Shown: in pieces, positions 17,397-33,121 of the stretch | How the letters are laid out: each line of letters starts with the position of its first letter | Position numbering within the stretch: position 1 is the first letter of the stretch | Assembly (NCBI GenBank): GCA_028820655.1 | Contig: JAPPIK010000004.1 | Location: forward strand, 1-64,000 | Source: Candidatus Poribacteria bacterium | GTDB lineage: Bacteria; Poribacteria; WGA-4E; JAJDTR01 | Direction: 5' to 3' | DNA: 64,000 nt | Notes under the pieces: generated by a model | Database searches by the model: none | What the model was told of the DNA's origin: nothing | The model's input: only the letters and a program-made list of their open reading frames with translations | Translations under genes and position numbers: made by a program

Positions 17397-20300
17397 TCAC
17401 TTTTCTGTGCTGGTTGAAGGTTTATCAGGGGTCAAAGCCCATAGTAGTATCGTGCCATCAGCGCTTCCGCTCGCGAGTGTGTTCCCATCGGGAGAAAAGA
17501 CGACGGAAACCACTTTGCTCGTGTGCCCCTTGAGCGTCAGGAGGTGCTCCCCGGTGAGGGTAACCCATACCCGAATTGTGTTGTCATATCCTCCACTAGC
17601 CAACAGCAACCCATCAGGCGAATACGCAATGGAAAGGATTCCATCGTTATGCCTGTACAGAGGATGTTTCTGTTTGCTCGTCTGCGCGTCCCACATATGC
17701 AATAGCTCGTCAGTCCCGCCACTAATAAGCGTTTTTACATCGGGAGAGAAGACTACTGAATTAACCCATCCTGTGTGAGTTTCAAGCGTGCTCCAGAGTT
17801 TGCCGGTTTGGACATACCACAACTGAATTTTACCATCCCAATTCCCACTGGCAACCAACCCGCCATAGGGCGAAAACGCTAGTGATTTAATCCAACCGGT
17901 GTGCTCAAGGGTGAGTAGGCGTTCACCCGTACGGGAATTCCATAACTGGATAGTTCCATCCATGCCTCCGCTAGCAAGTGTGAATTTAGTCGGTGAAAAC
18001 GTAACCGAAAGTATGGGCGCCTTGTGACCCTTAAGGAGTAGCCGCTGTTTTCCAGTGTGTGCGTCCCACAATCGAACAGTGTTGTCGTTACTTCCACTGG
18101 CAAGCGTATGGCCACGGTGGGAGAACGCTACGCTATTTACACTGCCGGTATGCCCGGAAAGAATCTCGATCTCGGCACCCGTACGTGCATCATGAACGTG
18201 AATTGCAGTGCCACTTGCCAAAGCGAAATATTTTCCGTCTGATGAATACGCGATGTTGCTGGATACCTTGGCTTTATCAAGTCGTACTTTAACGCCTTCA
18301 GGTAACTCCCGTGTGACATTGTATTGTTTTATGGCTGCCCATCCACCAATCGCACTCAAGAGTTGTTCAAGCACACCGATCCCCCTTTCCACAATCTCGT
18401 CTCGATTTTGAAGTTTCCGAGCATCCTTTAGCCATCTGTTTGCGTCTACCGCAGCGATGGAGTCCGAGACTTCGGCACGGACGTTTTGAGGATGCACCTG
18501 GAGCGCCACGGTGCCGCCCTCAATAGCGGTGGCGACCAACAGTAGATCGACGATGTCTACGACAGTATCTCTATTGATGTCAGCCCGGTTATACCCATTT
18601 TCACCTAATTGTGTGGAAACGGATATCAGATCCAAAACGTTAACAAACGCGTCCATATTGATATCTGCAACTGTTTCGGGCGGCGAATCCCACAGTAAAA
18701 TCGTCCCGTCGGCATTCCCGCTAGCGAGCGTCAGTCCATCGGGTGAAAACGCGAGGGTTCTGCTCCAGCCTGTGGGGCCGTAATGGGTTGTTTGGAGACC
18801 TCCAGTGCGTCGATTAAACAAACGTATTTTCCCCGAACCTACGTGTGCCAAAGTGTTCCCATCGGGGGAGGAAACGATGGTTCCGTAATCGTTGCCCAGT
18901 TTGAAAGTATGCAATAGTTCACCGGTGCGAGTATCCCACACATGCGCTGCCTTATCACCTTCACTAACCAAGGTATTCCCGTCAGGGAAAAATGCAATGG
19001 TTGGGGCATGTCGAGCGTTCCCCTCAAGTGTGTGTAGATGTTGCCCCGTGCGAACACTCCATAATTGGATGGGGTTTTGAAAGGGGCCGTTCTGTACTCC
19101 ACCGGCAAGCAGATTTCCATCAGGAGAACAAGCTAGATCAAAGATTGAATCCTGATGTTTCTCGAATGATCGTAGATTTTCACCGGTATTGGTATTCCAC
19201 AGCAGAATTGTCCCGCCAATGCTTCCGCTAGCAAGCTGGTAGCCATCGGGTAGAAATGCCATGGAAGTTACAGCACCCGTGTGGCCACGGAGAGAGTGCA
19301 ATGCTTTTCCGGTGTGACTATCCCAAATTCTTATTTGATGGTCCTCACCTGCACTTGCCAACATGGAGTCATCAGGCGCAAACGCTACCGACTGAACCGG
19401 AAGTGTGTGTCCGACAAACGTCCGATTTAGGTTGCCCGTGCGCACGTCCCATAGCCGGATCGCGTAGTCGTCGTTCCCAACGTGATGACTTCCGCCGCCG
19501 GTAGCAAGCATCGATCCATCGGCAGAGAATGCTATGGACTGGATACTGCCTGAATGCTCGTGAAAAGTCAGCAGAAGTTTACCGGTATGGGAATCCCATA
19601 GTCGAATGCTGTTGTCGCCGCTCCGACTGGCGAGCGTGTGCCCGTCGGGAGAAAAAGAAAGGGAAGTGACGTCGCCAATATACCCACCAAGCGTCAATCC
19701 AGGTTTGCCGGTACGGACATTCCATAACCGAATGGTGTTGTCCACACTTCCGCTGGCAAGCGTGAAACTATCGGGAGAAAAGGTCAATGTTTCGACTGAA
19801 CCGGAGTGTCCCATGAGGATGTGTATGATTTCCCCACTGTGCGAGTTCCAGAGCATGACGGAGTTGTCATCATAACCTCCACCGCTGGCAAGTGTGGAAC
19901 CGTCAGAGGATACTGCAACGGAAGTGACATGATTCGGGTGCCCCTCAAGCGTCTGCAGATGCTCCCCGGTGTGCGCATTCCAAAGACGAACGGTCTTGTC
20001 ATAGCCTCCGCTGCTGGCAAGCGTGGAGCCAATGGAAGCAAAAGCAACGGAATCGATACCACTCGTGTGTCCCTCTAGCGTCCGAAGGTGTCTGCCGGTA
20101 TGTGCATGCCATATGCGAATTGTTTTGTCCCGACTACCACTGGCTACCAGAGAACCTTCATCTGAAAAAGCCACACAACCAATCTCCTTACCGTGTCCCA
20201 ATAAAATGTGCAGGTTCTCTCCGGTGTGGGCATCCCACAATCTTACAGTTTGGTCCGAACTGCCACTGGCAAGCGTAATACCATCCGGTGAATACGCGAC

Positions 20301-20600
20301 GCAAGTCACATTTCCGGTATGTCCGGTAATCAGCATAATTTGCTCCCCGCCATCGACATCGTAAATCCAGATTCCAAGACTTCCGGCAGCGGCAAGGCGA
20401 GTACCGTCTGGTGAATATGCGATTTTTGATATCCAGCCTTTTCCGATTCGAGCTCTTGCGCCATCAGGCAAAGCCCACTGTGTACTGTTTTGGGCAGAAA
20501 TGTCTTGTACAGACGACACGGAAAGGTACATAATCAGTACAGAAACGAGCGCGAGGGGCGATTCAAAATACGGTTTCTTTATCATAAGAATTTGTTGCAT
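17397..20600 (-). CDS. Secreted WD40 protein with internal dockerin-like module
   Basis: A 1067-residue exported protein. A signal segment (about 1-36) leads into LPDGARARIGKG, then 14 WD40 blades (about 40-630), each ending in forms such as VRLWDAHTGE. Next comes a dockerin type I-like pair of calcium loops (DINMDAFVNVLD and DINRDTVVDIVD, about 635-685), a linker, a second LPEGVKVRLDKA opening, and seven more blades to the C terminus. Counted this way it has 21 blades, fitting three seven-bladed propellers. The role is probably protein-protein or surface scaffolding; no catalytic residues are seen. The dockerin could bind a cohesin such as the one in the protein at 48707. Both M1 and M6 are possible starts; neither has a good binding site. 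Confidence 0.88.
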   Translation of the reverse strand: MQQILMIKKPYFESPLALVSVLIMYLSVSSVQDISAQNSTQWALPDGARARIGKGWISKIAYSPDGTRLAAAGSLGIWIYDVDGGEQIMLITGHTGNVTCVAYSPDGITLASGSSDQTVRLWDAHTGENLHILLGHGKEIGCVAFSDEGSLVASGSRDKTIRIWHAHTGRHLRTLEGHTSGIDSVAFASIGSTLASSGGYDKTVRLWNAHTGEHLQTLEGHPNHVTSVAVSSDGSTLASGGGYDDNSVMLWNSHSGEIIHILMGHSGSVETLTFSPDSFTLASGSVDNTIRLWNVRTGKPGLTLGGYIGDVTSLSFSPDGHTLASRSGDNSIRLWDSHTGKLLLTFHEHSGSIQSIAFSADGSMLATGGGSHHVGNDDYAIRLWDVRTGNLNRTFVGHTLPVQSVAFAPDDSMLASAGEDHQIRIWDSHTGKALHSLRGHTGAVTSMAFLPDGYQLASGSIGGTILLWNTNTGENLRSFEKHQDSIFDLACSPDGNLLAGGVQNGPFQNPIQLWSVRTGQHLHTLEGNARHAPTIAFFPDGNTLVSEGDKAAHVWDTRTGELLHTFKLGNDYGTIVSSPDGNTLAHVGSGKIRLFNRRTGGLQTTHYGPTGWSRTLAFSPDGLTLASGNADGTILLWDSPPETVADINMDAFVNVLDLISVSTQLGENGYNRADINRDTVVDIVDLLLVATAIEGGTVALQVHPQNVRAEVSDSIAAVDANRWLKDARKLQNRDEIVERGIGVLEQLLSAIGGWAAIKQYNVTRELPEGVKVRLDKAKVSSNIAYSSDGKYFALASGTAIHVHDARTGAEIEILSGHTGSVNSVAFSHRGHTLASGSNDNTVRLWDAHTGKQRLLLKGHKAPILSVTFSPTKFTLASGGMDGTIQLWNSRTGERLLTLEHTGWIKSLAFSPYGGLVASGNWDGKIQLWYVQTGKLWSTLETHTGWVNSVVFSPDVKTLISGGTDELLHMWDAQTSKQKHPLYRHNDGILSIAYSPDGLLLASGGYDNTIRVWVTLTGEHLLTLKGHTSKVVSVVFSPDGNTLASGSADGTILLWALTPDKPSTSTEK

Positions 20601-20701
20601 GGATTGGGAGAATTGAACGAGTCGATGTTGAACGACGAATCATCTTTCGTCGGAAAAATAGTCAATTAGATTGCAATCGTTATATAGGTTAAAATTAGGG
20701 C

Positions 20702-22606
20702 TCAAGGAACGGAATGGAAATCATCTGTTGCGAGGGATAGGTCCCACAGGGAAATCGTGCCGTCCGAATTCCCAGCCGCAAGCGTTGATCCATCAGTAGA
20801 AAATGCTATGCACAGAACATCGCCTGAACCGGATTTTAGGGTTTTACGCAAACTCCCGACGCGCATATCCCAAAATCGAATTGTGCCATTCGAACTCCCG
20901 GTGGCAAAGGTGGGCTCATCCGGAGAAAATGCTATTGAATTCACAGAACCGGTAGGCCACTCAACAATCTTCCGTAGCCGCCCGGTAGGAACATCCCACA
21001 AACGAAGTGATTTGTCCCAGCTATTACTGATGAGTGTTGAGCCGTCAGGGGAGAATACCAAAGTGCTAATACGAGCAGTGTGACTCCATAGATGGTGTAG
21101 TGTTTTTCCGGTTCTAACGTCCCACAAGCGTATGTCGTTACCACTTGCACTAGCTAGGGTCAATCCATCTGCCGATAAACATACGTGACTAATTCCGCTT
21201 GCATCTTCGCCAAATGATTGCACAATTTTACCAGTCTTAACATCCCATATGCGAATTCCTTTATTCGGGTATCTGGTGCGAGCACTGGCTATCGTCATCC
21301 CGTCAGGGGAAAACGCCATTGTATAGAGAGATTTTTCGCGCTCCACAAGTGTGTGCAGAGCTTCACCGCTGCGAGTATTCCATAGTCGGATAGTCTTGTC
21401 AGAATTCTCCGTGGCTAACGTGGTGCCGTCTGGAGAAAGGATTGCGGACCTGATAATGCCTCTCCATAATCCCCCGGGAGACGGGCGAACATCAAAAACC
21501 TTGCTCTGTTCTCCCGTATGAACGTTCCAGAGCCGAATCGTCCCGCCTGAACTGGAAGCAAGCGTGGAACTATCAGGTAGAAACGCCACGGACCGTATCC
21601 AACCGGTATACCCTTCGAAGACATGCAAGATTTCTCCGGTACGCGCGTCCCAGAAATGAACTCCTCCCGGTCCTATACCAGCCAGGATTGATTCATTAGG
21701 CGAAAAAATCACTGATTTTGCCCAATGCCCTTGGAAAGTCCTCAACTGCTTTCCCGTGCTGGTATCCCAAAATAGAACACTATTTGGGGCCCTGGTCGCG
21801 CTGCTGACTAACGTGGAACCATCAGGTGAAAACGCCACAGAACTCACGACGCCCATATGCCCTACCAATTCCCGCAAGATTTCTCCGGTGTGTGCGTTCC
21901 ACAATCGAACTATCCTGTCCTCGCCTCCACTGGCAAGCATGGAGCCATCAGGTGAAAACGCTATAGATTCAATCCAATTTCTATGTTCCCTAAACTCCTT
22001 TTGAACTTCACCAGTAGTGGTATCCCAGAATTCAACCTTACCTCCGGCGCTTCCACTGACAAGTGTATTGCCATCAGGCGAGAAAGCCACGCAATACACC
22101 GCGTAAGTGTGCCTCATTTGCGACCATAAGGGTTCCCCGTCGCGTAGACTCCACAACTGAATCAACCTATCCTTGCCTGCACTCGCGAGCTTCTTGCCAT
22201 CAGGCGAAAACGCTATTGACCGCACTAAACTCGTGTGACCCTTAAGCGTGTGCGCGTGCCTCCGTGTCTGGGTATCCCATATTCGAACAATTCCACCCGA
22301 ACCGCTATAAGCGACTGAACGCCCATCGGGTGAGTATGCAACACTGCTAACCCATGGCGAGCCCTCTCTGAGAAACGTAACTTCGGTGTAAGTGTCGACA
22401 TCATAGATTCGAACACCCCGACTTGATGCGACTGCGAGCCGAGTACCGTCTGGCGAATACGCAACCTCAAAGGCTCTACCTTTCCCAAGTTCTCGTTTAA
22501 CAATTTTGGGGGTGGACAAATGAGAAATGTCTCGGTTACAACCGTGCTGAAGCAATAGCACAAAAACGAACAAGAAATTGACTGTTGGCAAGAATCTTCT
22601 TTTCAT
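20702..22606 (-). CDS. WD40 repeat lipoprotein
   Basis: A 634-residue protein counted from the ATG at 22606. An earlier in-frame TTG at 22678 is less likely because MKRRFLPTVNFLFVFVLLLQHGC is a typical lipoprotein signal ending in a lipobox (LQHGC). Fourteen WD40 blades follow, consistent with two seven-bladed propellers; typical endings are VRIWDTQTRR and IRLWNVHTGE. The opening ELGKGRAFEVAYSPDGTRLA matches the GKG-type start of the other WD40 proteins in the window. It is probably anchored to the inner face of the outer membrane or to the inner membrane and serves in interactions. It lies directly upstream of the WD40 gene at 17397 on the same strand, with a 101-base gap. Confidence 0.88.
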   Translation of the reverse strand: MKRRFLPTVNFLFVFVLLLQHGCNRDISHLSTPKIVKRELGKGRAFEVAYSPDGTRLAVASSRGVRIYDVDTYTEVTFLREGSPWVSSVAYSPDGRSVAYSGSGGIVRIWDTQTRRHAHTLKGHTSLVRSIAFSPDGKKLASAGKDRLIQLWSLRDGEPLWSQMRHTYAVYCVAFSPDGNTLVSGSAGGKVEFWDTTTGEVQKEFREHRNWIESIAFSPDGSMLASGGEDRIVRLWNAHTGEILRELVGHMGVVSSVAFSPDGSTLVSSATRAPNSVLFWDTSTGKQLRTFQGHWAKSVIFSPNESILAGIGPGGVHFWDARTGEILHVFEGYTGWIRSVAFLPDSSTLASSSGGTIRLWNVHTGEQSKVFDVRPSPGGLWRGIIRSAILSPDGTTLATENSDKTIRLWNTRSGEALHTLVEREKSLYTMAFSPDGMTIASARTRYPNKGIRIWDVKTGKIVQSFGEDASGISHVCLSADGLTLASASGNDIRLWDVRTGKTLHHLWSHTARISTLVFSPDGSTLISNSWDKSLRLWDVPTGRLRKIVEWPTGSVNSIAFSPDEPTFATGSSNGTIRFWDMRVGSLRKTLKSGSGDVLCIAFSTDGSTLAAGNSDGTISLWDLSLATDDFHSVP

Positions 22607-23115
22607 CTCAAGAAAATTCTCTTTTGTTATAGTCATTGCAACTAAAAATTTCACAATTGTTATTTTAACATATCCCAATTCCCACCTGTTCCGTAGGTCG
22701 GGCTTCTAGCCCGACCCGCTCAATGGCAAACATCGCGAAACGGGAGATTGTAAGCTAGGTCGAGTCAATCAACGCTCATATGAGTAAATATAAATGACTA
22801 TAGAATAGGTTTGAATGGGCGGCGGAAGTTCTTTTATCTCGATTTCGAGAGATCAGTCTTTGTAACACTGTTTTTGCTTCGCGCCCTCATATTGGCGTCT
22901 TAGGCGAATGGAATACACACTATTGACGGAGGTCTCCGAATCAGACAGCGGACATTTGACAACAAGCAAGAATGGTGCCTACTACATCGGCCTCGCCATT
23001 GGTGCCAATCGTATCCATGAGTCGTGTTGGTATGAAAAACAACATCTCCAACACGACTATCCAAACCGAGCATGGACAATCGCTAGATAAGGAATTGCGA
23101 AAATCAATCTGACAA
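22607..23115. other. Intergenic region with GTAGG hairpin
   Basis: About 500 bases without a supported gene. A GTAGG-type hairpin lies at 22693-22716. A 60-codon plus-strand frame at 22908-23090 has no ribosome binding site or recognisable product and I leave it out. Confidence 0.5.
22693..22716. repeat. GTAGG hairpin element
   Basis: GTAGGTCGGGCTTCTAGCCC followed by GACC: GGTCGGGCT pairs with AGCCCGACC around a two- to four-base loop. Same general design as the elements at 14057, 29724, 34689 and 51958. Confidence 0.7.
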
Positions 23116-24591
23116 TTAGAAGTCATCCCAAATATGCTCAAAACCGGGATGAGTCACGGGACCTTTCAGCAGTAAGTCGTCTGTCTCTTCCATATGCGCT
23201 CTCAATTGCGCTTTGAAGGATGTCGCAATTCTCTTGTAGTCGGGATGGCAGGGCTCCCAGCCGGACAACCCGGTGAAGTCCACGTCACCGAAGCCGAACA
23301 TCTTGCGTGTGGATGCAAGATTGTTCTGTTCGTGCGGATCGGACTCGAGGTCGTATAGTTCCTCGATTCCCTTGAATCCCGTTAGAAGTTCCGTAAGAAC
23401 TTCGCGGGCGGATCTGTTTTGCGGGTAAAGGAGATGCTTGTGAGTATCGAAATTCATAAGGTATTTGAAGCGCTCGGTCCTAATACCTCGTATCGGGATA
23501 TATTGACCGTGCCACGTATTCTCCGCATAGATGTGGTCTCGTCGTTGATAGGCGCGATTTTGGAGCATTGGAAGGAAGGAGCGCCCGTCGATATCATCCG
23601 GCGCGTTGCCACCCGCAATCTCGACAAGCGTAGGCAGAAAATCAACATTGCTGAGAAGAGCATCATTCGCTGTCCCCGGCTGGAAGTTGTCGGGATAGCG
23701 CATAATCAGGGCACACTCGATACCCGCGTCGTAGAGTGATCCTTTGGCGCGCGGCACCTCGATACCGTGATCCGTCGTGAAGATGACGAGCGTATTTCTG
23801 TCCAGCCCGGTGGCGCTAAGTTTGTCGAGAATTCGTCCCACCGCGACATCAATGACGCAGGTGATGAGGCTATTCAAATCCGCGATGTCCTCGCGGATTC
23901 CGCGCCGGTCCGGCAGGTATGGCAACGGCTGGACTTCGTCCGGATCGTAGTCGCGGAAATAGGGATCGCACGGATTGTCGACGGGACGGACTATCTGACC
24001 CTCATACTTGGAGGCGTCCACACGATGAACATACTTCGGTTTGAAACGCGGCACGGGCAAGTTGTCGCGCCAGTTCTCGAACCCGCCGCGCGGCGTCGCG
24101 GAATGCGCCTCGGTAAATCCCACATCCATATAGAAGGGGCCATCCTCTTCGCGGTAACTGTCGAGAAACTGTTGAACTCGCGGCGCCGCATCCATGGCAC
24201 TGATTGTGGCGTTTGGAAAGCCGTACTCGGTGTGCTGGTAACCGAGATCTTTAGGATCGATGGCTTCATGTTGAAAACCGAAAAGATGAGTATCGTAACC
24301 GAGCGCGTTCATATACATTGGCAGGGTTTGAAGCCCATCATTCATTTTCCAACCCAAGTGCGTTTGACCGATCGCGCCGTGATTTACGGGATAAAGTCCT
24401 GTCATGCGGCTGCATCTGCTCGGGGCGCAGTAGGGGGCAGTTGAAAAATACTGATCGAATCGGACGCCTTCATCTGCCAAGCTGTCAATGTTCGGCGTTT
24501 CTACGCCGCGCCCGTAACAGCCGAGATGACGCCCGACATCGTGGCAGTGGATAACCATTATATTGGGGCGTTGTTGAGAAAGATTGGACAT
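23116..24591 (-). CDS. Sulfatase (formylglycine-dependent, type I)
   Basis: A 491-residue arylsulfatase-family hydrolase. The active-site signature C-x-P-S-R is present as YCAPSRCSRMTGLYP (C55 would be converted to formylglycine). Metal-binding pieces are IMVIHCHDVGRH near the N terminus and FTTDHGIEVPRAKGSLYDAG in the middle, and the C-terminal region has YDLESDPHEQNNLA, usual for this family. It hydrolyses sulfate esters; the length suits a carbohydrate or small-molecule sulfatase. No signal peptide is visible, so it may act in the cytosol, and it would need a formylglycine-generating enzyme not found in this window. AAGGAA lies before the ATG. Downstream in the same direction from AKR, SMP-30 and PhyH genes. 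Confidence 0.93.
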   Translation of the reverse strand: MSNLSQQRPNIMVIHCHDVGRHLGCYGRGVETPNIDSLADEGVRFDQYFSTAPYCAPSRCSRMTGLYPVNHGAIGQTHLGWKMNDGLQTLPMYMNALGYDTHLFGFQHEAIDPKDLGYQHTEYGFPNATISAMDAAPRVQQFLDSYREEDGPFYMDVGFTEAHSATPRGGFENWRDNLPVPRFKPKYVHRVDASKYEGQIVRPVDNPCDPYFRDYDPDEVQPLPYLPDRRGIREDIADLNSLITCVIDVAVGRILDKLSATGLDRNTLVIFTTDHGIEVPRAKGSLYDAGIECALIMRYPDNFQPGTANDALLSNVDFLPTLVEIAGGNAPDDIDGRSFLPMLQNRAYQRRDHIYAENTWHGQYIPIRGIRTERFKYLMNFDTHKHLLYPQNRSAREVLTELLTGFKGIEELYDLESDPHEQNNLASTRKMFGFGDVDFTGLSGWEPCHPDYKRIATSFKAQLRAHMEETDDLLLKGPVTHPGFEHIWDDF

Positions 24592-24712
24592 CGGAAGTGT
24601 TCCTTAAAGAAAAAAAACGTGTAAGGAGTGGAACATAAAAGAAATCAGAGATCAATAACCTGTAATGATGATTCGTAATACGTAATGCGTGTTAGACGGT
24701 TGGAAGCACGCC

Positions 24713-24732
24713 ATTATCCCTATCGGAATAAT
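24713..24732 (+). repeat. ATTAT/ATAAT hairpin repeat, copy 2
   Basis: ATTATCCCTATCGGAATAAT, preceded by ACGCC as at 51901 (GCGCC). The stem has one mismatch and a four-base loop that differs between copies (TATC here, TGAC and CGGC at 51.9-52.0 kb), as expected if the stem rather than the loop is conserved. Confidence 0.65.
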
Positions 24733-24800
24733 GTTCTCAGAACGGACCCTGACAGAGATTTTCCACCTCTTGCACTCCAGCGGATCAAGGGAGTTGATAG

Positions 24801-24852
24801 ATCAAGTGACTGAATAAGGAACGCGATAGAGATCCCAGCGCGATAGAGATCT
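24801..24852 (+). repeat. Dispersed ATCAAG...GCGATAGAGATC repeat, copies 2 and 2b
   Basis: ATCAAGTGACTG...ACGCGATAGAGATCCC (24801-24836), followed at once by a second GCGCGATAGAGATCTC (24838-24852). The second copy keeps only the right-hand part. Confidence 0.7.
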
Positions 24853-25022
24853 CGGCAATGTAAATAGATCACGATGCCTCCCCGCGTCTGCACTCCATCC
24901 GAGTGCAATGTCAATAGTATCGCGGCGCGTCCAATCTCCGCGCTCCAGCGGCGTGCAACGTAGACTGTAATTTGGTAGAAACATCAAAAAATGAAGGATA
25001 AAAGCGAAAAATTGTGCGCGAT

Positions 25023-25946
25023 TCAACCAAAACGTGGCGCAACACCGGCGATATTGGCGACGATAGTATTCAGCCACGCTAATTCCACAGGCGTCAATTC
25101 CGCCTCAAGCGCACCAACGTCTTCTACTAATCGACTTGGGCGCCGGGTTCCGATGATTGCCACACTTACGAGCGGATTGGCGAGTGTCCACGCCAACGCT
25201 AGTTGGGAGAGTGTCAACCCGCGTTCGCTGGCGAACTCCATCAACTTCTCCACCACCGTTAAATTCGTAGGCAGGTTCTCGGGTGCGTACAGATTGTTAT
25301 GGGTTCGCACGTCGTCCGGCGGGAGACTGGTGTCGGCGGTAATTGCCCCACTCAGAAGCCCTTGAGCGAGCGGACTGTAAGCCATGACACCGATTCCCAG
25401 CACTGCGCAGGTTGGGAATACGGTCTTTTGCCAATAGCGATCAAAGAGGCTGTAGCCGAGTTGATTGGTAGCCAGTTCCACCCTGCCAACGGATGCCTGC
25501 AGCATAGCGCTATCCCAATTGGTGACGCCCACGGCGCGGGCTTTGCCGGATTCCTTTACCTGAATCAAACCATCAATGATCTCGTCTGCCGGAGTGTTCG
25601 CATCGGGAAAGATGACGTAGAGATCGGCGTAGTCCGTGCGTAAGTTCCTCAGGCTGCCCTCAATGTTGGCAAACAGATTCGATTTGGTGTAAGGACGCCG
25701 CTGAGATTTGGTGATGAGGAACACTTCATGTCGTCTAGAACGAAATTCCTCTCCAAACCAAATCTCGGTATCGCCATAGTATGGCGCGCCGTCGATGAGA
25801 GTGATGCCGAGGTCGAACGCCGTGCGCATGGCGGTCACCGCCGTGTCCCGGTCAACTGCCCCATATGCCGATCCACCCAGTGTCCAACCGCCCACCCCTA
25901 AAACCGGCACTTCAATCCCGGAACAACCTAACTGGCGATATTGCAT
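25023..25946 (-). CDS. Aldo/keto reductase family protein, catalytic His absent
   Basis: A 307-residue protein of the aldo/keto reductase family (NAD(P)H-dependent carbonyl reduction or the reverse). The start MQYRQLGCSGIEVPVLGVGGW, the catalytic aspartate and tyrosine in LIDGAPYYGD (D52, Y57) and the lysine in FLITKSQ (K80) are present. The strand that normally reads DLYQIHWPD is here DLYVIFPD, so the fourth catalytic residue, histidine, is missing. The C-terminal cofactor region VSVAIIGTRRPSRLVED is normal. It may use a different substrate or act with altered chemistry. It lies 153 bases after the SMP-30 gene and 431 bases before the sulfatase gene, all on one strand, which fits a sugar or sugar-acid pathway (inference). 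Confidence 0.9.
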   Translation of the reverse strand: MQYRQLGCSGIEVPVLGVGGWTLGGSAYGAVDRDTAVTAMRTAFDLGITLIDGAPYYGDTEIWFGEEFRSRRHEVFLITKSQRRPYTKSNLFANIEGSLRNLRTDYADLYVIFPDANTPADEIIDGLIQVKESGKARAVGVTNWDSAMLQASVGRVELATNQLGYSLFDRYWQKTVFPTCAVLGIGVMAYSPLAQGLLSGAITADTSLPPDDVRTHNNLYAPENLPTNLTVVEKLMEFASERGLTLSQLALAWTLANPLVSVAIIGTRRPSRLVEDVGALEAELTPVELAWLNTIVANIAGVAPRFG

Positions 25947-26099
25947 ATGTTGATTAGACCTCGGTCAAGGATAGTAACGCGGGATGAGAAGAGACGGATC
26001 TGGCGCAGAACATTCCCAAGAAACTAATACGTAATGCTTACTGCGTATTGAAAAGAACCGTCTCTACCGATGTCGAAAAGAGGAACTACGCGAAAATCA

Positions 26100-26936
26100 C
26101 TACTGAACTCCGGCGATTTTAAGCCGAATGCTGTAGATTGAAGTTCGAGCCGCGATAAAGAGTGTCTTGTGATCCGGCCCGCCGAAAGCGCAGTTCTCCG
26201 GCAATTCGGGAGTGACAATGGTTCCGAGGTGTTCGCCCGACCGCGAAATAACCCACGTTCCGCCCGCGCCCGTGACGTAGAGGTTTCCGGCGACATCCAC
26301 CTTCATTCCATCCGCCGCCCCCCGTGCGTCGGCTCTCATATCGATCAAAATTCGCCCGTTGGCGAGCGAACCGTCCGATAAAACATCGAAGGCGCGGACA
26401 TGCTGGTGTCTTGAATCGTCGATGTACAGGATACTCTCATCCGGCGAAAACGCCAATCCGTTCGGCACGCCGAAATCATCGACAAGCAGCGTGACTGCGC
26501 CGTCAGTGGCGATGCGGTAGACTCCCTGAAAATCCAGTTCGCGTTCCTGATCTGCGGGGAAACCGTAGAAGGGATCGGTGAAATAGATGCTACCATCTGA
26601 TTTAACGACCACATCGTTGGGGCTATTCAAACGCTTTCCGCTGTAACTGTCTGCAAGAACGCTGATAGAGCCGTCGGATTCCGTACGAGAAACGCGGCGG
26701 CTGTGGTACTCGCATGCGATGAGCCGCCCCTGGCGGTCAAATGTCAGTCCGTTAGCGCCGCCGCTGGGATCGCGAAAGACCTCTGATGTGCCATCGAGCG
26801 CCAGTTTAAAGATTCGATGCGCCGGAATGTCGCTGAGGAAGAGATAACCATCAGGGTGCCAAATTGGCCCCTCCGTAAATTCGAACCCGGTAGCAACGAG
26901 TTCCGATTCGCCGTCAATGATGTCGGAGATTGTCAT
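26100..26936 (-). CDS. SMP-30/gluconolactonase family protein
   Basis: A 278-residue six-bladed propeller of the SMP-30/gluconolactonase/LRE-like family. Visible marks are FEFTEGPIWHPDGYLFLSDI (the glutamate is a metal ligand), LNSPNDVVVKSDGSIYFTDP (asparagine and aspartate of the metal site), FGVPNGLAFSPDESILYIDD, and DGMKVDVAGNLYVTG. These are the usual calcium- or zinc-site regions. The family opens lactones of sugar acids. The ATG overlaps the stop codon of the PhyH gene by the four bases ATGA (26936-26933), so the two are translationally coupled and probably act in one pathway. No signal peptide, so cytosolic. Confidence 0.92.
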   Translation of the reverse strand: MTISDIIDGESELVATGFEFTEGPIWHPDGYLFLSDIPAHRIFKLALDGTSEVFRDPSGGANGLTFDRQGRLIACEYHSRRVSRTESDGSISVLADSYSGKRLNSPNDVVVKSDGSIYFTDPFYGFPADQERELDFQGVYRIATDGAVTLLVDDFGVPNGLAFSPDESILYIDDSRHQHVRAFDVLSDGSLANGRILIDMRADARGAADGMKVDVAGNLYVTGAGGTWVISRSGEHLGTIVTPELPENCAFGGPDHKTLFIAARTSIYSIRLKIAGVQ

Positions 26937-27736
26937 TCGTGTGTTTCTCTCCCTTTCGTTAACGACTGGTTTTCGCAGGCGACGACCTGCTCCAAGTGGC
27001 GCATTCTGGCGGCCGATGCGGTGCGGCGCATGAGTTCGGAGTGAACGCTGGCGGATCTAGGGTGATAGCGCGGAAATCCATCGGGACGTCGGATGTATTT
27101 GTGCAATTCTTCAATCTCGGCGCCAGTATTCGCCCGACGTGACACATTCAAACAGAAGTGGCGGCGGGCGGTACCTCCCCCGTAAGAAGCGTGGAGGATG
27201 TTGTGATTGAATACCACGATGTCACCGGGTTCGGTCTCGATAGCGGCACACGGTATGTGGCATCCCTGGATGCCAAAATCTTCGTTTGGTTGGCGAGCCC
27301 GTTCCGAATGATGCCGCCATGGTCCACCCAAGTGACTGCCGGGAATCACGCGGATACAACCGGTATCGTGCGTCAATGGGTCGAGATAAAGGTGAAACTT
27401 CGCGTAGAGACCGACAGTATGGAAGCCGTCGGAATGCCAATTCGTATTGCCGCTGTAATAATTGCCATCGCCGCCGATGTAATTGAAATCTTCGCCAAGC
27501 AGTGATTTAAGCACGCCCAACACTTTGGGGTGATCAAGCAAGGTGCAGAGCCGCTCGCTCTGATCGCTGAATGGCACGATCTGAGAGCGCCTACTTCCGT
27601 CGTGCACAACACCTTTTATTTCAAAGACTTTCTTGTGTTCCTCAATTATCCAACCGATGTCATCGGCCATCAATCCCGGAAGAAGAATGTATCCGAATGC
27701 TTCGAAAAAGGCACATTGTTGAGGAGTCAATGCCAT
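26933..27736 (-). CDS. Phytanoyl-CoA dioxygenase family (PhyH) protein
   Basis: A 267-residue PhyH oxygenase of the second subgroup in this window, with 28015 and 28873 (shared N terminus ALTPQQCAFFEAFGYILLPG and a block FHLYLDPLTHDTGCIRVIPG). Ligands: NWHSDG (H101, D103), ILHASYGGG, ARRHFCLNV. AAGGAAAG precedes the ATG. The stop overlaps the start of the SMP-30 gene (ATGA). That coupling suggests that the product of the oxidation is a lactone or a sugar acid precursor for the lactonase (inference). Confidence 0.93.
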   Translation of the reverse strand: MALTPQQCAFFEAFGYILLPGLMADDIGWIIEEHKKVFEIKGVVHDGSRRSQIVPFSDQSERLCTLLDHPKVLGVLKSLLGEDFNYIGGDGNYYSGNTNWHSDGFHTVGLYAKFHLYLDPLTHDTGCIRVIPGSHLGGPWRHHSERARQPNEDFGIQGCHIPCAAIETEPGDIVVFNHNILHASYGGGTARRHFCLNVSRRANTGAEIEELHKYIRRPDGFPRYHPRSASVHSELMRRTASAARMRHLEQVVACENQSLTKGRETHE

Positions 27737-27871: not shown

Positions 27872-27908
27872 AATCAAGGGAGCGGACAACGACCGCGATA
27901 GAGATCCC
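27872..27908 (+). repeat. Dispersed ATCAAG...GCGATAGAGATC repeat, copy 3
   Basis: AATCAAGGGAGCGG...ACCGCGATAGAGATCCCC. It lies in the gap between two PhyH genes. The left arm is less conserved than in copy 1. Confidence 0.6.
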
Positions 27909-28014: not shown

Positions 28015-28806
28015 TTACTGTACCGCGTTTAGGTAATACTGCTCGCGTTGAATCACCTGTTCTAGATGGACATAACGCTCAGGTGAGGCCGTATTGCGCA
28101 TGAGGTCCTGTGCGCCGGGTGCATACTTTCCGGGCCAATGCTCTGGTCTTCCGGCTGGTCGCAGATAACGGTCGAGTTCACTGACTTCGGCTTCGGTCTT
28201 GGCTCGGCTAGTTACATTGAGGCACATGTGACGGCGGGCAGGTCCACCGCCGAAAGAGGCATGGTAAATGTTGTGATTGAACACGACGACATCCCCCGGT
28301 TCGGTTTCGGCGGCGACGCAGGGAACATCCCGACCGGAGATGCCAAGAAGTTCGGTGGGCTGGCGAGTACGCTGAAGATACTCTCTCCACGGACCAATCA
28401 GGTGGCTGCCGGGAATCACACGGATACATCCCGTGTCCCGCCCCAAGGGGTCGAGATAGAGATGAAATTTGGCGAAGAGACCGACTTGATGCCCGCCATC
28501 GGAGTGCCAGTTCGTATCGCCGCTGTAGTAATTTCCGTCGCCGCCCACATAGTTGAAATCATCGCCGAGCAGTGACTTCAGCACACCGAGCACTTTCGGA
28601 TGGTCTAGAAGTGTACAGAGTCGTTCACGCTGATCGCTAAACGGGACTATCATGGAACGCTTTGATCCGTCATGAACGACGCCTTGTTGCTCAAAAACCT
28701 TCCCATGCTCCTCGATTATCCAGTCAATGTCGTCGGTCATCAATCCCGGCAGCATCAGATAGCCAAATGACTCGAAGAAGGTGCACTGTTGGGGAGTAAG
28801 TGTCAT
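28015..28806 (-). CDS. Phytanoyl-CoA dioxygenase family (PhyH) protein
   Basis: A 263-residue PhyH oxygenase, a tandem paralogue of 26933 and 28873. Ligands: NWHSDGG (H101, D103), IYHASFGGG and ARRHMCLNV. Residue numbering of the iron site is identical in the three proteins, which points to recent tandem duplication. Between the distal histidine and the C terminus this protein has YLRPAGRPEHWPGKYAPG, close to the 28873 protein and unlike 26933. A gap of 66 bases separates it from the upstream PhyH gene, so 28873 and 28015 are probably cotranscribed. Confidence 0.92.
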   Translation of the reverse strand: MTLTPQQCTFFESFGYLMLPGLMTDDIDWIIEEHGKVFEQQGVVHDGSKRSMIVPFSDQRERLCTLLDHPKVLGVLKSLLGDDFNYVGGDGNYYSGDTNWHSDGGHQVGLFAKFHLYLDPLGRDTGCIRVIPGSHLIGPWREYLQRTRQPTELLGISGRDVPCVAAETEPGDVVVFNHNIYHASFGGGPARRHMCLNVTSRAKTEAEVSELDRYLRPAGRPEHWPGKYAPGAQDLMRNTASPERYVHLEQVIQREQYYLNAVQ

Positions 28807-28872: not shown

Positions 28873-29688
28873 CTATTGGGTAGCTTCCCAAGCGGCGCGA
28901 TCGAGGTTTTCGCGCTCGATCACTTGCTCGAGGTGGCGCATCCTCTCGGGAGTAGCCGTGCCGAGCATAATGTCCTGTTCTCCCGGCGCCCATTTACCAG
29001 GTTTCTCCTTTGTCCGGTCTTTCGGCAATATGAACTTTTCAAGGTCCGCCATTTCTTCTTCCGTTTTTGCGCGGCTCGAAAGATTGAGATCGAAGTGACG
29101 GCGCGCCGTTCCGCCCCCGAAGGATGCGTGATACGTCGTGTGATTCAGCACGGCGACATCTCCGGGTTCATTTTCAATGGCGACGCAAGGGATATCGGTG
29201 CCGGCGACACCTATCGATTCGCAAAACGGCTGGAGCCAGATGTTTTCTCTCAGGTGGTCTCTCCAGGGTCCTGGCAGGTGGCTCCCCGGAATGGCGCGGA
29301 TGCAGCCTGTATCCCGCGTCAGCGTGTCGAGATAGATGTGGAATTTGGCGAAGGTTAGACCACCGGGCCGATGTCCGCCGTCATCGTGCCAACTTGTGCT
29401 GCCGCTGTAGTAGCTGCCATCACTGCCGACATAATTGAAATCGTCGCCTAACAGGGATCCGAGCACTTCCAGAACCTTGGGATGGTCGAGTAGGGTGCAG
29501 AGTTTTTCGGTTTGATCTATAAAAGGTACGACATAGGTGCGCTTCGTGCCATCGTGGACGACGCCGTTCTTCTCAAAAACCTTTTGGTGCTCCTCAGCCA
29601 TCCAATCGACATCGTCTGCCAGCAAACCCGGAAGGACGAGGTATCCGAATGAATGGAAGAATTCGCATTGTTGGGAAGTGAGAGCCAT
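28873..29688 (-). CDS. Phytanoyl-CoA dioxygenase family (PhyH) protein
   Basis: A 271-residue PhyH oxygenase from the ATG at 29688, which has AAGGAGGAA upstream; the in-frame ATG at 29736 lacks a site and lies in a GTAGG-type repeat. Ligands: SWHDDGG (H101, D103; note an aspartate in the middle position where the paralogues have serine or proline), TYHASFGGG and ARRHFDLNL. It starts the PhyH triplet 28873-28015-26933. The three share ERLCTLLDHPKVL or a near variant and can be expected to act on related substrates or to differ in position specificity (inference). Confidence 0.93.
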   Translation of the reverse strand: MALTSQQCEFFHSFGYLVLPGLLADDVDWMAEEHQKVFEKNGVVHDGTKRTYVVPFIDQTEKLCTLLDHPKVLEVLGSLLGDDFNYVGSDGSYYSGSTSWHDDGGHRPGGLTFAKFHIYLDTLTRDTGCIRAIPGSHLPGPWRDHLRENIWLQPFCESIGVAGTDIPCVAIENEPGDVAVLNHTTYHASFGGGTARRHFDLNLSSRAKTEEEMADLEKFILPKDRTKEKPGKWAPGEQDIMLGTATPERMRHLEQVIERENLDRAAWEATQ

Positions 29689-31250: not shown

Positions 31251-32144
31251 TCATTGGTCGGGAAAGCGCAGGAACCGTTTTGCGGTTTCGCCCATGATGT
31301 CGCGGTATTCGTCGTGTGTTAGATCGGGCAGCAATTCTTTGATGATGGTGGTCAACTTGCCGTAACCCGGATCTTCGAGAATCCACGGAAAATCGGTCGC
31401 CCACATGAGACGCTTGGAACCGTAAATCCTCAAAAGGCTTTGATGCCACCCCGCAAGATCCCGATAAGGGAACGGCTCGTTACTGAAGGCGTATTGAAGG
31501 CACAATAACATCGCGACGTTCTCGAATTTCGCTAGACGCCAAGTCGTATGGAACGCGGGATTGTACATCGGTGTCTCTATTCGCGGTCGGCAATTGGTGC
31601 CCCAAGAGAGTTTGCCGTTTCCCGGACATATACCCATGTGGTTAATCACGATCCTGACCTGAGGAAATGTCGACACAAGATAGGGTAGCAGATGCGCGTC
31701 GCGAGCTTGCAGAATCAACCACAGGACATAATCCTTCTCTGCGGCGTGTTTCCAAATACGATAGGCGCCGAGTTGCTTCACATCAATCTTTTCAAAGGGA
31801 TCGCGAGGTCCCCCGATTCTTGAAAGCCGGAAACCGATAATACCGGTTCCATCTGTCAAGGTATCCATGTGGTCTTCAACGTCCGGTAGATCGGGAGATA
31901 TGAGTCCGATGCCCAAAAAACGGTCACGGTAAGTCCCGATGCAGTGCCGAAGGTAGGCGTGATGCTCGACCTGTACACCGGGGTGTTGTACCAGCACCGC
32001 TTGATCAATCTGATGCGCTTCCATCTCTGCCAGCAACTTTTCGACGGGTTCTTCCCGTTCCGCGGGCCATAGCTCATTGCTTTCTCTCGGGAATCTTGTG
32101 GACGCCTTGGTGAAAACGTGAAGATGAGCATCAATGCGGGGCAT
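31251..32144 (-). CDS. Amidohydrolase family protein (Amidohydro_2 type)
   Basis: A 297-residue TIM-barrel metal-dependent hydrolase. RIDAHLHVF at the N terminus gives the H-x-H metal pair (H7, H9), VLVQHPGVQ and IVINHMG give further strand-end histidines, and RLMWATDFPW carries the conserved aspartate. The family includes decarboxylases and lactone or amide hydrolases, and many members act on lactones or aromatic acids. The ATG at 32144 overlaps the stop codon of the PhyH gene by one base (TAATG), so the two are translationally coupled. I infer that it processes the product of that dioxygenase; the reaction is unknown. Confidence 0.9.
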   Translation of the reverse strand: MPRIDAHLHVFTKASTRFPRESNELWPAEREEPVEKLLAEMEAHQIDQAVLVQHPGVQVEHHAYLRHCIGTYRDRFLGIGLISPDLPDVEDHMDTLTDGTGIIGFRLSRIGGPRDPFEKIDVKQLGAYRIWKHAAEKDYVLWLILQARDAHLLPYLVSTFPQVRIVINHMGICPGNGKLSWGTNCRPRIETPMYNPAFHTTWRLAKFENVAMLLCLQYAFSNEPFPYRDLAGWHQSLLRIYGSKRLMWATDFPWILEDPGYGKLTTIIKELLPDLTHDEYRDIMGETAKRFLRFPDQ

Positions 32145-33121
32145 TATGCCTCCATCGCATCTTTGTACGGCGTGAGATCCATCTCCGGATACCAGTGCGC
32201 GAGAGAGTCGACTGTCTCAGGCGAGTAATAGGGGTGTCCCGGCTTGGGCCATCCGAAGAGCGCCCGCACACGCGGCGTGGTCTTCTGCCAGAATGGGATG
32301 GAGTAATCTCGCTCCCTCCACAGGTTCGACAACTTGGTGAACTGACTGCTATCTCCGCGGCAGAGTGAGAGTGTCCAATATCCTCGCTGTCTACGCTTGT
32401 TGGCGAACGGGATTGCCGCATGAACGCCGTAGGAACTATTGAATCGTACGCTGCCTGCCTTGGCAGTGGTGGCAACGGGCGCGCAAAACTCGGGGATTTC
32501 CCGGATGTCCTTGATACCGCCCATACCGGTCCAGTTTCCCTCTTCAATGAGTCGAGGAAGGAGGTCGATGATCTGACGATGAGTATGAGGGATGATTTGC
32601 ATCGGGGCGCCGTCATCTTCGACGTCGTGGAGATAGACACAGGAGTTTACGTAGTTGTATAAATCGACCTCATGGTTGGGCGGCAAAAAGCAGTTTGTCG
32701 CGTGGTCGATGTGGTATCCTTGCCACGGGTGATCGGAATGCCGTTTGTCGGTGGGCCCCGACCGCAAAAAAAGGTGCCCGTTGCAGTAACTCATATCCGA
32801 GGTTCCGAGGCACTGTTCATACATGTCGAGGTAGTCCTCGTTCTCGATTAGGCGATCAAGGGCGTCAATGCCCGTCGGGAATTGCGCGCGGCCGTGTTTT
32901 GTTTCGCCGTAGTGGGGAACTGTGGCGGTACTGGTGGGGTCGGTGGATTCCGCCTCTCCGGTGGCGTCCAACTTTGCCAAGTAATCCTCAAAACTCGTAC
33001 CGTAGAATATCTTCTCCATTTCGACTCGTGCGGCTTCCACATCCTTTTTGTCGAAAACATCCTTCACGATAAGAAAGCCGTCTTCATGAAACTTGTCAAG
33101 TTGTGCCTGTGTTAGAGCCAT
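32144..33121 (-). CDS. Phytanoyl-CoA dioxygenase family (PhyH) protein
   Basis: A 325-residue PhyH oxygenase, longer than the others nearby. Likely ligands: GYHIDHA (H137, D139), GVHAAIPF for the distal histidine and NKRRQRGYW for the 2-oxoglutarate arginine. A second histidine-aspartate pair in KRHSDHP (128, 130) lies just before, so which pair binds iron should be checked in a structure. The N terminus LTQAQLDKFHEDGFLIVKDVF is typical. Excellent ribosome binding site (AAGGAGAGG) and a strong promoter (33196-33224) make it the first gene of a two-gene transcript with the amidohydrolase. Confidence 0.9.
   Translation of the reverse strand: MALTQAQLDKFHEDGFLIVKDVFDKKDVEAARVEMEKIFYGTSFEDYLAKLDATGEAESTDPTSTATVPHYGETKHGRAQFPTGIDALDRLIENEDYLDMYEQCLGTSDMSYCNGHLFLRSGPTDKRHSDHPWQGYHIDHATNCFLPPNHEVDLYNYVNSCVYLHDVEDDGAPMQIIPHTHRQIIDLLPRLIEEGNWTGMGGIKDIREIPEFCAPVATTAKAGSVRFNSSYGVHAAIPFANKRRQRGYWTLSLCRGDSSQFTKLSNLWRERDYSIPFWQKTTPRVRALFGWPKPGHPYYSPETVDSLAHWYPEMDLTPYKDAMEA

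Follow-up and report, generated by a model that had tools for sequence, protein, structure and literature searches.

The window analysed here (the whole stretch of 64,000 nucleotides from contig JAPPIK010000004.1 of a Candidatus Poribacteria bacterium, assembly GCA_028820655.1) bears four open reading frames (ORFs) on its minus strand that encode, read 5'→3', a member of the Fe(II)/2-oxoglutarate (2OG) dioxygenase family (PhyH1), an SMP-30/gluconolactonase-like hydrolase (SGL), an aldo/keto reductase family protein (AKR) and a sulfatase (Table 1). Our preferred reading, which we stop short of calling probable, is that PhyH1 and SGL make up a unit of two translationally coupled genes, one for an oxygenase and one for a hydrolase, as one case of a recurring PhyH-hydrolase pairing. 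The unit would close a tandem PhyH array on its 3' side, and poribacterial hydrolase genes would sit directly behind PhyH genes taken from a large pool; a neighboring amidohydrolase gene is the strongest case. The AKR and sulfatase genes, kept downstream within the genus, are spaced like separately initiated genes, and their products may share a class of substrate with the pair.

A sequence-only reading of this DNA had described a PhyH gene at 26933 that overlaps the SGL gene by ATGA, followed by the AKR and sulfatase genes on the same strand, and the ORFs confirm this description. Because SGL and AKR are separated by 153 bp, and AKR and the sulfatase gene by 431 bp, only the PhyH1-SGL junction is tight. 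In the sister species (genome G001, contig C128), the same genes occur in the same order, with one additional PhyH in the array, and the proteins show 92.5% (PhyH1), 93.5% (SGL), 93.8% (AKR) and 97.1% (sulfatase) identity with those of the window. The PhyH1/SGL junction in G001 is TAATG, a 1-nt overlap, in place of the 4-nt ATGA of the window; what persists there is the closeness of the two genes, not the precise overlap. Purifying selection acts on all four genes, the ratios of nonsynonymous to synonymous substitution rates (dN/dS) against the sister species being 0.08 for PhyH1, 0.09 for SGL, 0.09 for AKR and 0.03 for the sulfatase. A 4-nt overlap is by itself not rare in the window, where the 36 neighboring minus-strand gene pairs include two overlaps of 4 nt, one of 1 nt and one of 68 nt (start uncertain). 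The sequence-only reading took the overlap as direct evidence of coupled translation; coupling is a fair expectation, favored by the 1-nt overlap in the sister species, but the evidence for it is indirect.

All four proteins exceed the Pfam gathering cut-offs of their families. By profile (PF05721, 2.4e-12, 48.0 bits against a cut-off of 22) and by its ligand residues, PhyH1 is a member of the Fe(II)/2OG dioxygenase family: H101, D103, H182, R191 and R192 are invariant in 14/14 aligned sequences, and the first three are the iron ligands. Its AlphaFold model (predicted local distance difference test score 79.9, predicted template modeling score 0.82) has Foldseek matches to 2OG oxygenases, including EctD, SnoK and proline hydroxylase H11, with PHYHD1 at rank 32. 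A single-sequence (phmmer) search of PhyH1 against solved chains gave no match at E <= 0.01, and the best profile match to a solved enzyme is the distant EctD (2.2e-9). SGL belongs to the SMP-30/gluconolactonase family as judged by a nearly full-length profile match (PF08450, 180 bits against 26.3) and by its metal-site motifs, and is predicted to be a lactonase. Its closest solved relatives, 3e5z (2.9e-45) and 3dr2 (4.4e-41), are both named gluconolactonases, and its TEGP (residues 21-24), NSPND (104-108), PNGL (158-161) and ADGMK (208-212) segments contain what we take to be the Glu/Asn/Asn/Asp metal-site motifs (TEGP, NSPND, PNGL, ADG), with roles as in SMP-30. No obvious signal peptide was seen in PhyH1, SGL, AKR or the sulfatase by eye.

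With regard to coupling, substrate type and step order, we infer the following scheme around the observed genes, overlap, selection and distribution. Ribosomes finishing PhyH1 would restart on SGL, as the junction suggests, so that both enzymes would be made together. From the chemistry of its family, PhyH1 would most likely oxidize a C-H beside an oxygen of some small polar compound to yield a lactone, a labile ester or a hemiacetal, and SGL, a putative metal-dependent beta-propeller hydrolase of the gluconolactonase type, would open that product. Such coupling of an oxygenase to a hydrolase that opens rings or esters points to the PhyH product as the hydrolase substrate.

It is also evident that a second PhyH-hydrolase pair, PhyH325 and a PF04909 amidohydrolase, lies 4 kb from the PhyH-SGL block. 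Its junction is TAATG, a 1-nt overlap, and TGATG in the sister species. A match of the amidohydrolase at E <= 1e-40 is found in 53/58 genomes of the order and in 68/84 genomes of the phylum. In 66 of 67 genomes (the 68th, G082, was left out because of a contig end) a PhyH gene lies within 260 bp upstream of the amidohydrolase orthologue, and in the exception, G023, it lies 1009 bp upstream; by our own placement of the starts, the two genes overlap in 16 genomes (families f1, f3, f4 and f7). By comparison, none of the five examined among six amidohydrolase paralogues (36-39% identity) has a PhyH in that upstream interval. In 64 genomes the partner of the amidohydrolase is one orthologous PhyH (>50% identical to that of G021); both genomes of this genus have PhyH325 in its place, and PhyH325 has no BLAST match with the usual partner. 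The usual partner persists elsewhere in the genus, at G000:C15:43264-43977 in the genome of the window (71% identity) and on G001:C20 in the sister species (69%), with the amidohydrolase not adjacent. The PhyH in the amidohydrolase slot seems to have been exchanged within this genus, which is the simplest reading. A further step, that Poribacteria use a very large stock of interchangeable PhyH oxygenases as plug-in partners of hydrolases, that the hydrolase keeps a coupling slot behind a PhyH that can be replaced by an unrelated one, and that PhyH-SGL is such a slot newly filled by a physical or channelled pair, is in our view rather unlikely. As a separate observation, the usual partner on G000:C15 (locus L259 3232-3990) sits behind an amidase gene.

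In 50 of 70 loci (L194-L199, L258 and other f2 loci), the PhyH-amidohydrolase pair is preceded by a serine-dehydratase/3-hydroxy-D-aspartate-aldolase-like pyridoxal phosphate (PLP) gene, and in 6 of the 70, all in genus g5 (L189-L193 and L237), by an AKR that has the catalytic His; G023 is counted twice among the 70, and two of them are paralogue loci. The amidohydrolase scores 31.8 bits against the NCBIfam equivalog for L-fucono-1,5-lactonase, far below the cut-off of 400, which does not place it in that family, and its sole solved relative at E <= 0.001 is 2ffi, a putative 2-pyrone-4,6-dicarboxylate hydrolase (6.5e-4). A lactonase function for the amidohydrolase is therefore unproven.

Table 1. 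Positions in the window of the four-gene block, the tandem PhyH paralogues, the neighboring pair and the dispersed 15-mer
Feature	Position	Strand	Remarks
Sulfatase	23116..24591	-	491 aa; PF00884 5.1e-37 and SGSH_C 9.9e-21
AKR-sulfatase spacer	24592..25022	.	~280 bp with no counterpart in the sister species; two copies of the dispersed 15-mer
AKR (aldo/keto reductase family protein)	25023..25946	-	307 aa; PF00248 1.4e-61
SGL (SMP-30/gluconolactonase-like hydrolase)	26100..26936	-	278 aa; PF08450 7.3e-53
ATGA, SGL start/PhyH1 stop overlap	26933..26936	-	4 nt
PhyH1	26933..27736	-	267 aa; Fe(II)/2OG dioxygenase family; HxD (residues 101-103) and distal His (182)
PhyH2, tandem paralogue	28015..28806	-	70% identical to PhyH1
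PhyH3, tandem paralogue	28873..29688	-	60% identical to PhyH1
Amidohydrolase (PF04909)	31251..32144	-	297 aa; PF04909 5.5e-25
PhyH325, amidohydrolase's PhyH partner in this genus	32144..33121	-	PF05721 9.7e-9; 8xp6 2OG-Fe(II) oxygenase 4.2e-10
Copies of the dispersed 15-mer GGGATCTCTATCGCG	24822-24853, 27894-27908, 12880, 29913, 42829		

Outside the genus, the PhyH-SGL pair is not kept. Among the 58 genomes of the order, relatives of the PhyH1 query (E <= 1e-20) are found in 55 and those of the SGL query (E <= 1e-30) in all 58, and orthologues of AKR (E <= 1e-60) and of the sulfatase (E <= 1e-90) in two each, both of this genus. The PhyH1 orthologues of genus g5 (~70% identity) sit among different genes, which in the annotated locus of G014 are 6-phosphogluconate dehydrogenase, HAD, 2-hydroxyacid dehydrogenase, methyltransferase, PhyH, FGE-sulfatase, SDR and Gfo-Idh; the other g5 loci show a similar ORF pattern. 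Behind the closest PhyH1 orthologues, the pair is not kept in the six out-of-genus genomes G007, G010, G014, G016, G018 and G019. The sole case of a PhyH followed by an SGL in these six is at G019:C283, where the SGL is 25% identical to that of the window. No PhyH was found within the stretch examined around the SGL orthologue of G021 (72% identity), and no SGL match in the stretches examined at eight loci of other phyla with PhyH relatives of 42-55% identity. Similarly, on plasmids, two loci with SGL relatives were inspected out of 785 records and neither has a PhyH beside the SGL gene, and no such pair was seen at two further plasmid loci, one with a PhyH relative and the other with an amidohydrolase relative. 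The sequence-only reading proposed to compare gene order across poribacterial genomes: the gene order is not kept beyond the genus, and of the overlap it is the close junction in the sister species that is kept, but not ATGA itself, with the pair absent outside the genus.

Several of the results weigh against the preferred reading. In 22 genomes, 4 of 118 SGL ORFs (the window SGL, G000:C60:94950, G003:C38 and G019:C283) have a same-strand PhyH gene at most 400 bp upstream, and their spread over several SGL clusters counts in favor of the reading; one WD40 false positive was dropped from 119, the sister species' copy of the pair (L055) lies outside the scan, and SGL rows weaker than ~2e-19, a few fragments and stop-containing rows are left out. 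Their number, however, is near what might be expected by chance if 1-3% of genes encode PhyH, a rough estimate, and an order-wide PhyH-SGL association was therefore not accepted as a general rule. The pair is confined to this genus, and any wider association is at most mild. The evidence for its conservation comes from two species of a single genus with ~93% identity. Moreover, the synonymous divergence (dS) from the sister species, 0.30-0.45 from PhyH2 through the sulfatase and 0.60-0.87 in the genes upstream of PhyH2, was rejected as proof of a joint transfer or of one unit, since the baseline of this genome pair (0.21-0.93) is too wide. The lactone-forming chemistry of PhyH1 is a guess, because the protein is without a close characterized relative, and a demethylase role is likewise possible for it (PMC12709175).

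AKR fits the reading poorly as well. The family has a catalytic tetrad of Asp-Tyr-Lys-His. AKR matches the family profile (PF00248, 208.6 bits against a cut-off of 24) and has Asp52, Tyr57 and Lys80, but in the alignment to IolS (1pyf) the tetrad His is missing: the His of YIHFPD in IolS aligns to an Ile of YVIFPD in AKR, the sequence there being one residue shorter, and both species are alike in this. AKR may thus not be an ordinary carbonyl reductase. Type I sulfatases bear a formylglycine motif, C/S-x-P-x-R, and by sequence the sulfatase of the window has it, as CAPSR at residue 55, with 128 bits for PF00884 against a cut-off of 25; its closest solved relative is 9bb9 S1_8A (4.9e-35).

The strongest alternative, which we regard as less likely than a coupled unit, is that the overlap reflects ordinary gene packing and has no functional meaning: a PhyH from a recent duplication would by chance end at an unrelated SGL gene. 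Such packing would agree with the confinement of the pair to one genus, with the other overlaps in the window, with the placement of the ~70% PhyH1 orthologues among quite different genes, and with the abundance of PhyH, of which this genome (5.9 Mb) has 152 PF05721 matches, enough that chance neighbors are expected. However, in the sister species the junction has changed in sequence yet remains close, and the adjacent PhyH-amidohydrolase pair shows that long retention of such couplings is possible.

The sequence-only reading joined all four genes into one route of desulfation, hydroxylation, ring opening and reduction for a sulfated sugar or a sugar acid, which we consider improbable. The order of all four is kept in both species, the AKR and sulfatase orthologues are confined to genomes that have the PhyH-SGL pair, and the genes from PhyH2 to the sulfatase have lower dS than those upstream; nevertheless, the AKR and sulfatase genes are set apart by the two gaps, and the larger one contains ~280 bp present in the window only, the gap in G001 being 150 bp. 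The reduction step is doubtful because AKR lacks the tetrad His, and the sequence lends no support to sugar hydroxylation, since PhyH1 is only distantly matched to solved enzymes. Furthermore, family membership does not fix the order of the steps, and no transporter or sugar kinase is found among the annotated genes from the sulfatase to PhyH407. The sulfated-sugar pathway is thus unproven, with some evidence against it. Least likely of all is that PhyH1 acts as an O-demethylase in the manner of PHYHD1/FJS, with 2'-O-methylated nucleosides or methyl sugars as examples of substrates, and SGL on an oxidation product of the released sugar. In favor of this, a PhyH-family protein from Poribacteria gave complementation in a 2'-O-methylcytidine assay (PMC12709175), and PHYHD1 is among the Foldseek matches of the PhyH1 model. 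Against it, the profile similarity to PHYHD1 is weak (E 0.0071) and below that to EctD, SnoK and others; the main text of that paper does not show which poribacterial protein was assayed, and the present genome has 152 PhyH matches.

Some further features of the window stand apart from these readings. The dispersed 15-mer GGGATCTCTATCGCG has 6 matches at <=2 mismatches in the window against 0.16 expected, and copies of it are found inside two stretches that the sister species lacks. A promoter/terminator scan was discarded, as its counts were the same as in shuffles. Two WD40-repeat proteins at 17397-22678 are 60-62% identical to their G001 counterparts, and most of their neighbors are 89-97% identical.

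Taken alone, the PhyH-SGL pair is a weak lead, and its interest comes mainly from the neighboring conserved pair and the apparent exchange of partners there. The poribacterial PhyH expansion is little explained functionally (PMC3909097), and the PhyH-amidohydrolase pair offers a concrete and small target for assigning a PhyH function. A search of the literature collection at hand returned nothing relevant on PhyH with SMP-30 and sulfatase, with gluconolactonase and operon, or with amidohydrolase.

Compared with known systems, SGL resembles the SMP-30/gluconolactonase family (PF08450; 3e5z and 3dr2) in its near full-length match and metal-site motifs and differs in being paired with a PhyH dioxygenase. 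PhyH1 is like EctD, SnoK, proline hydroxylase H11 and PHYHD1 (PF05721) in its model fold and Fe(II) ligand motif, and unlike them in lacking a phmmer match to any solved chain at the threshold used. In PMC12709175, demethylation of 2'-O-methyl nucleosides is described for PhyH-family proteins, one of them from Poribacteria. Translational coupling through overlaps of -4 and -1 nt has been reported for bacteria and archaea (PMC6728339, PMC10666635), and the ATGA and TAATG junctions are of these types, with coupling here predicted from the sequence. Kamke et al. (2014; PMC3909097) describe a poribacterial phyH expansion with very many genes per genome, mostly without function, which the present genome resembles, and also a pair of the phnY-phnZ type, in which a PhyH is joined by an HD hydrolase; the partners here are SGL and a PF04909 amidohydrolase.

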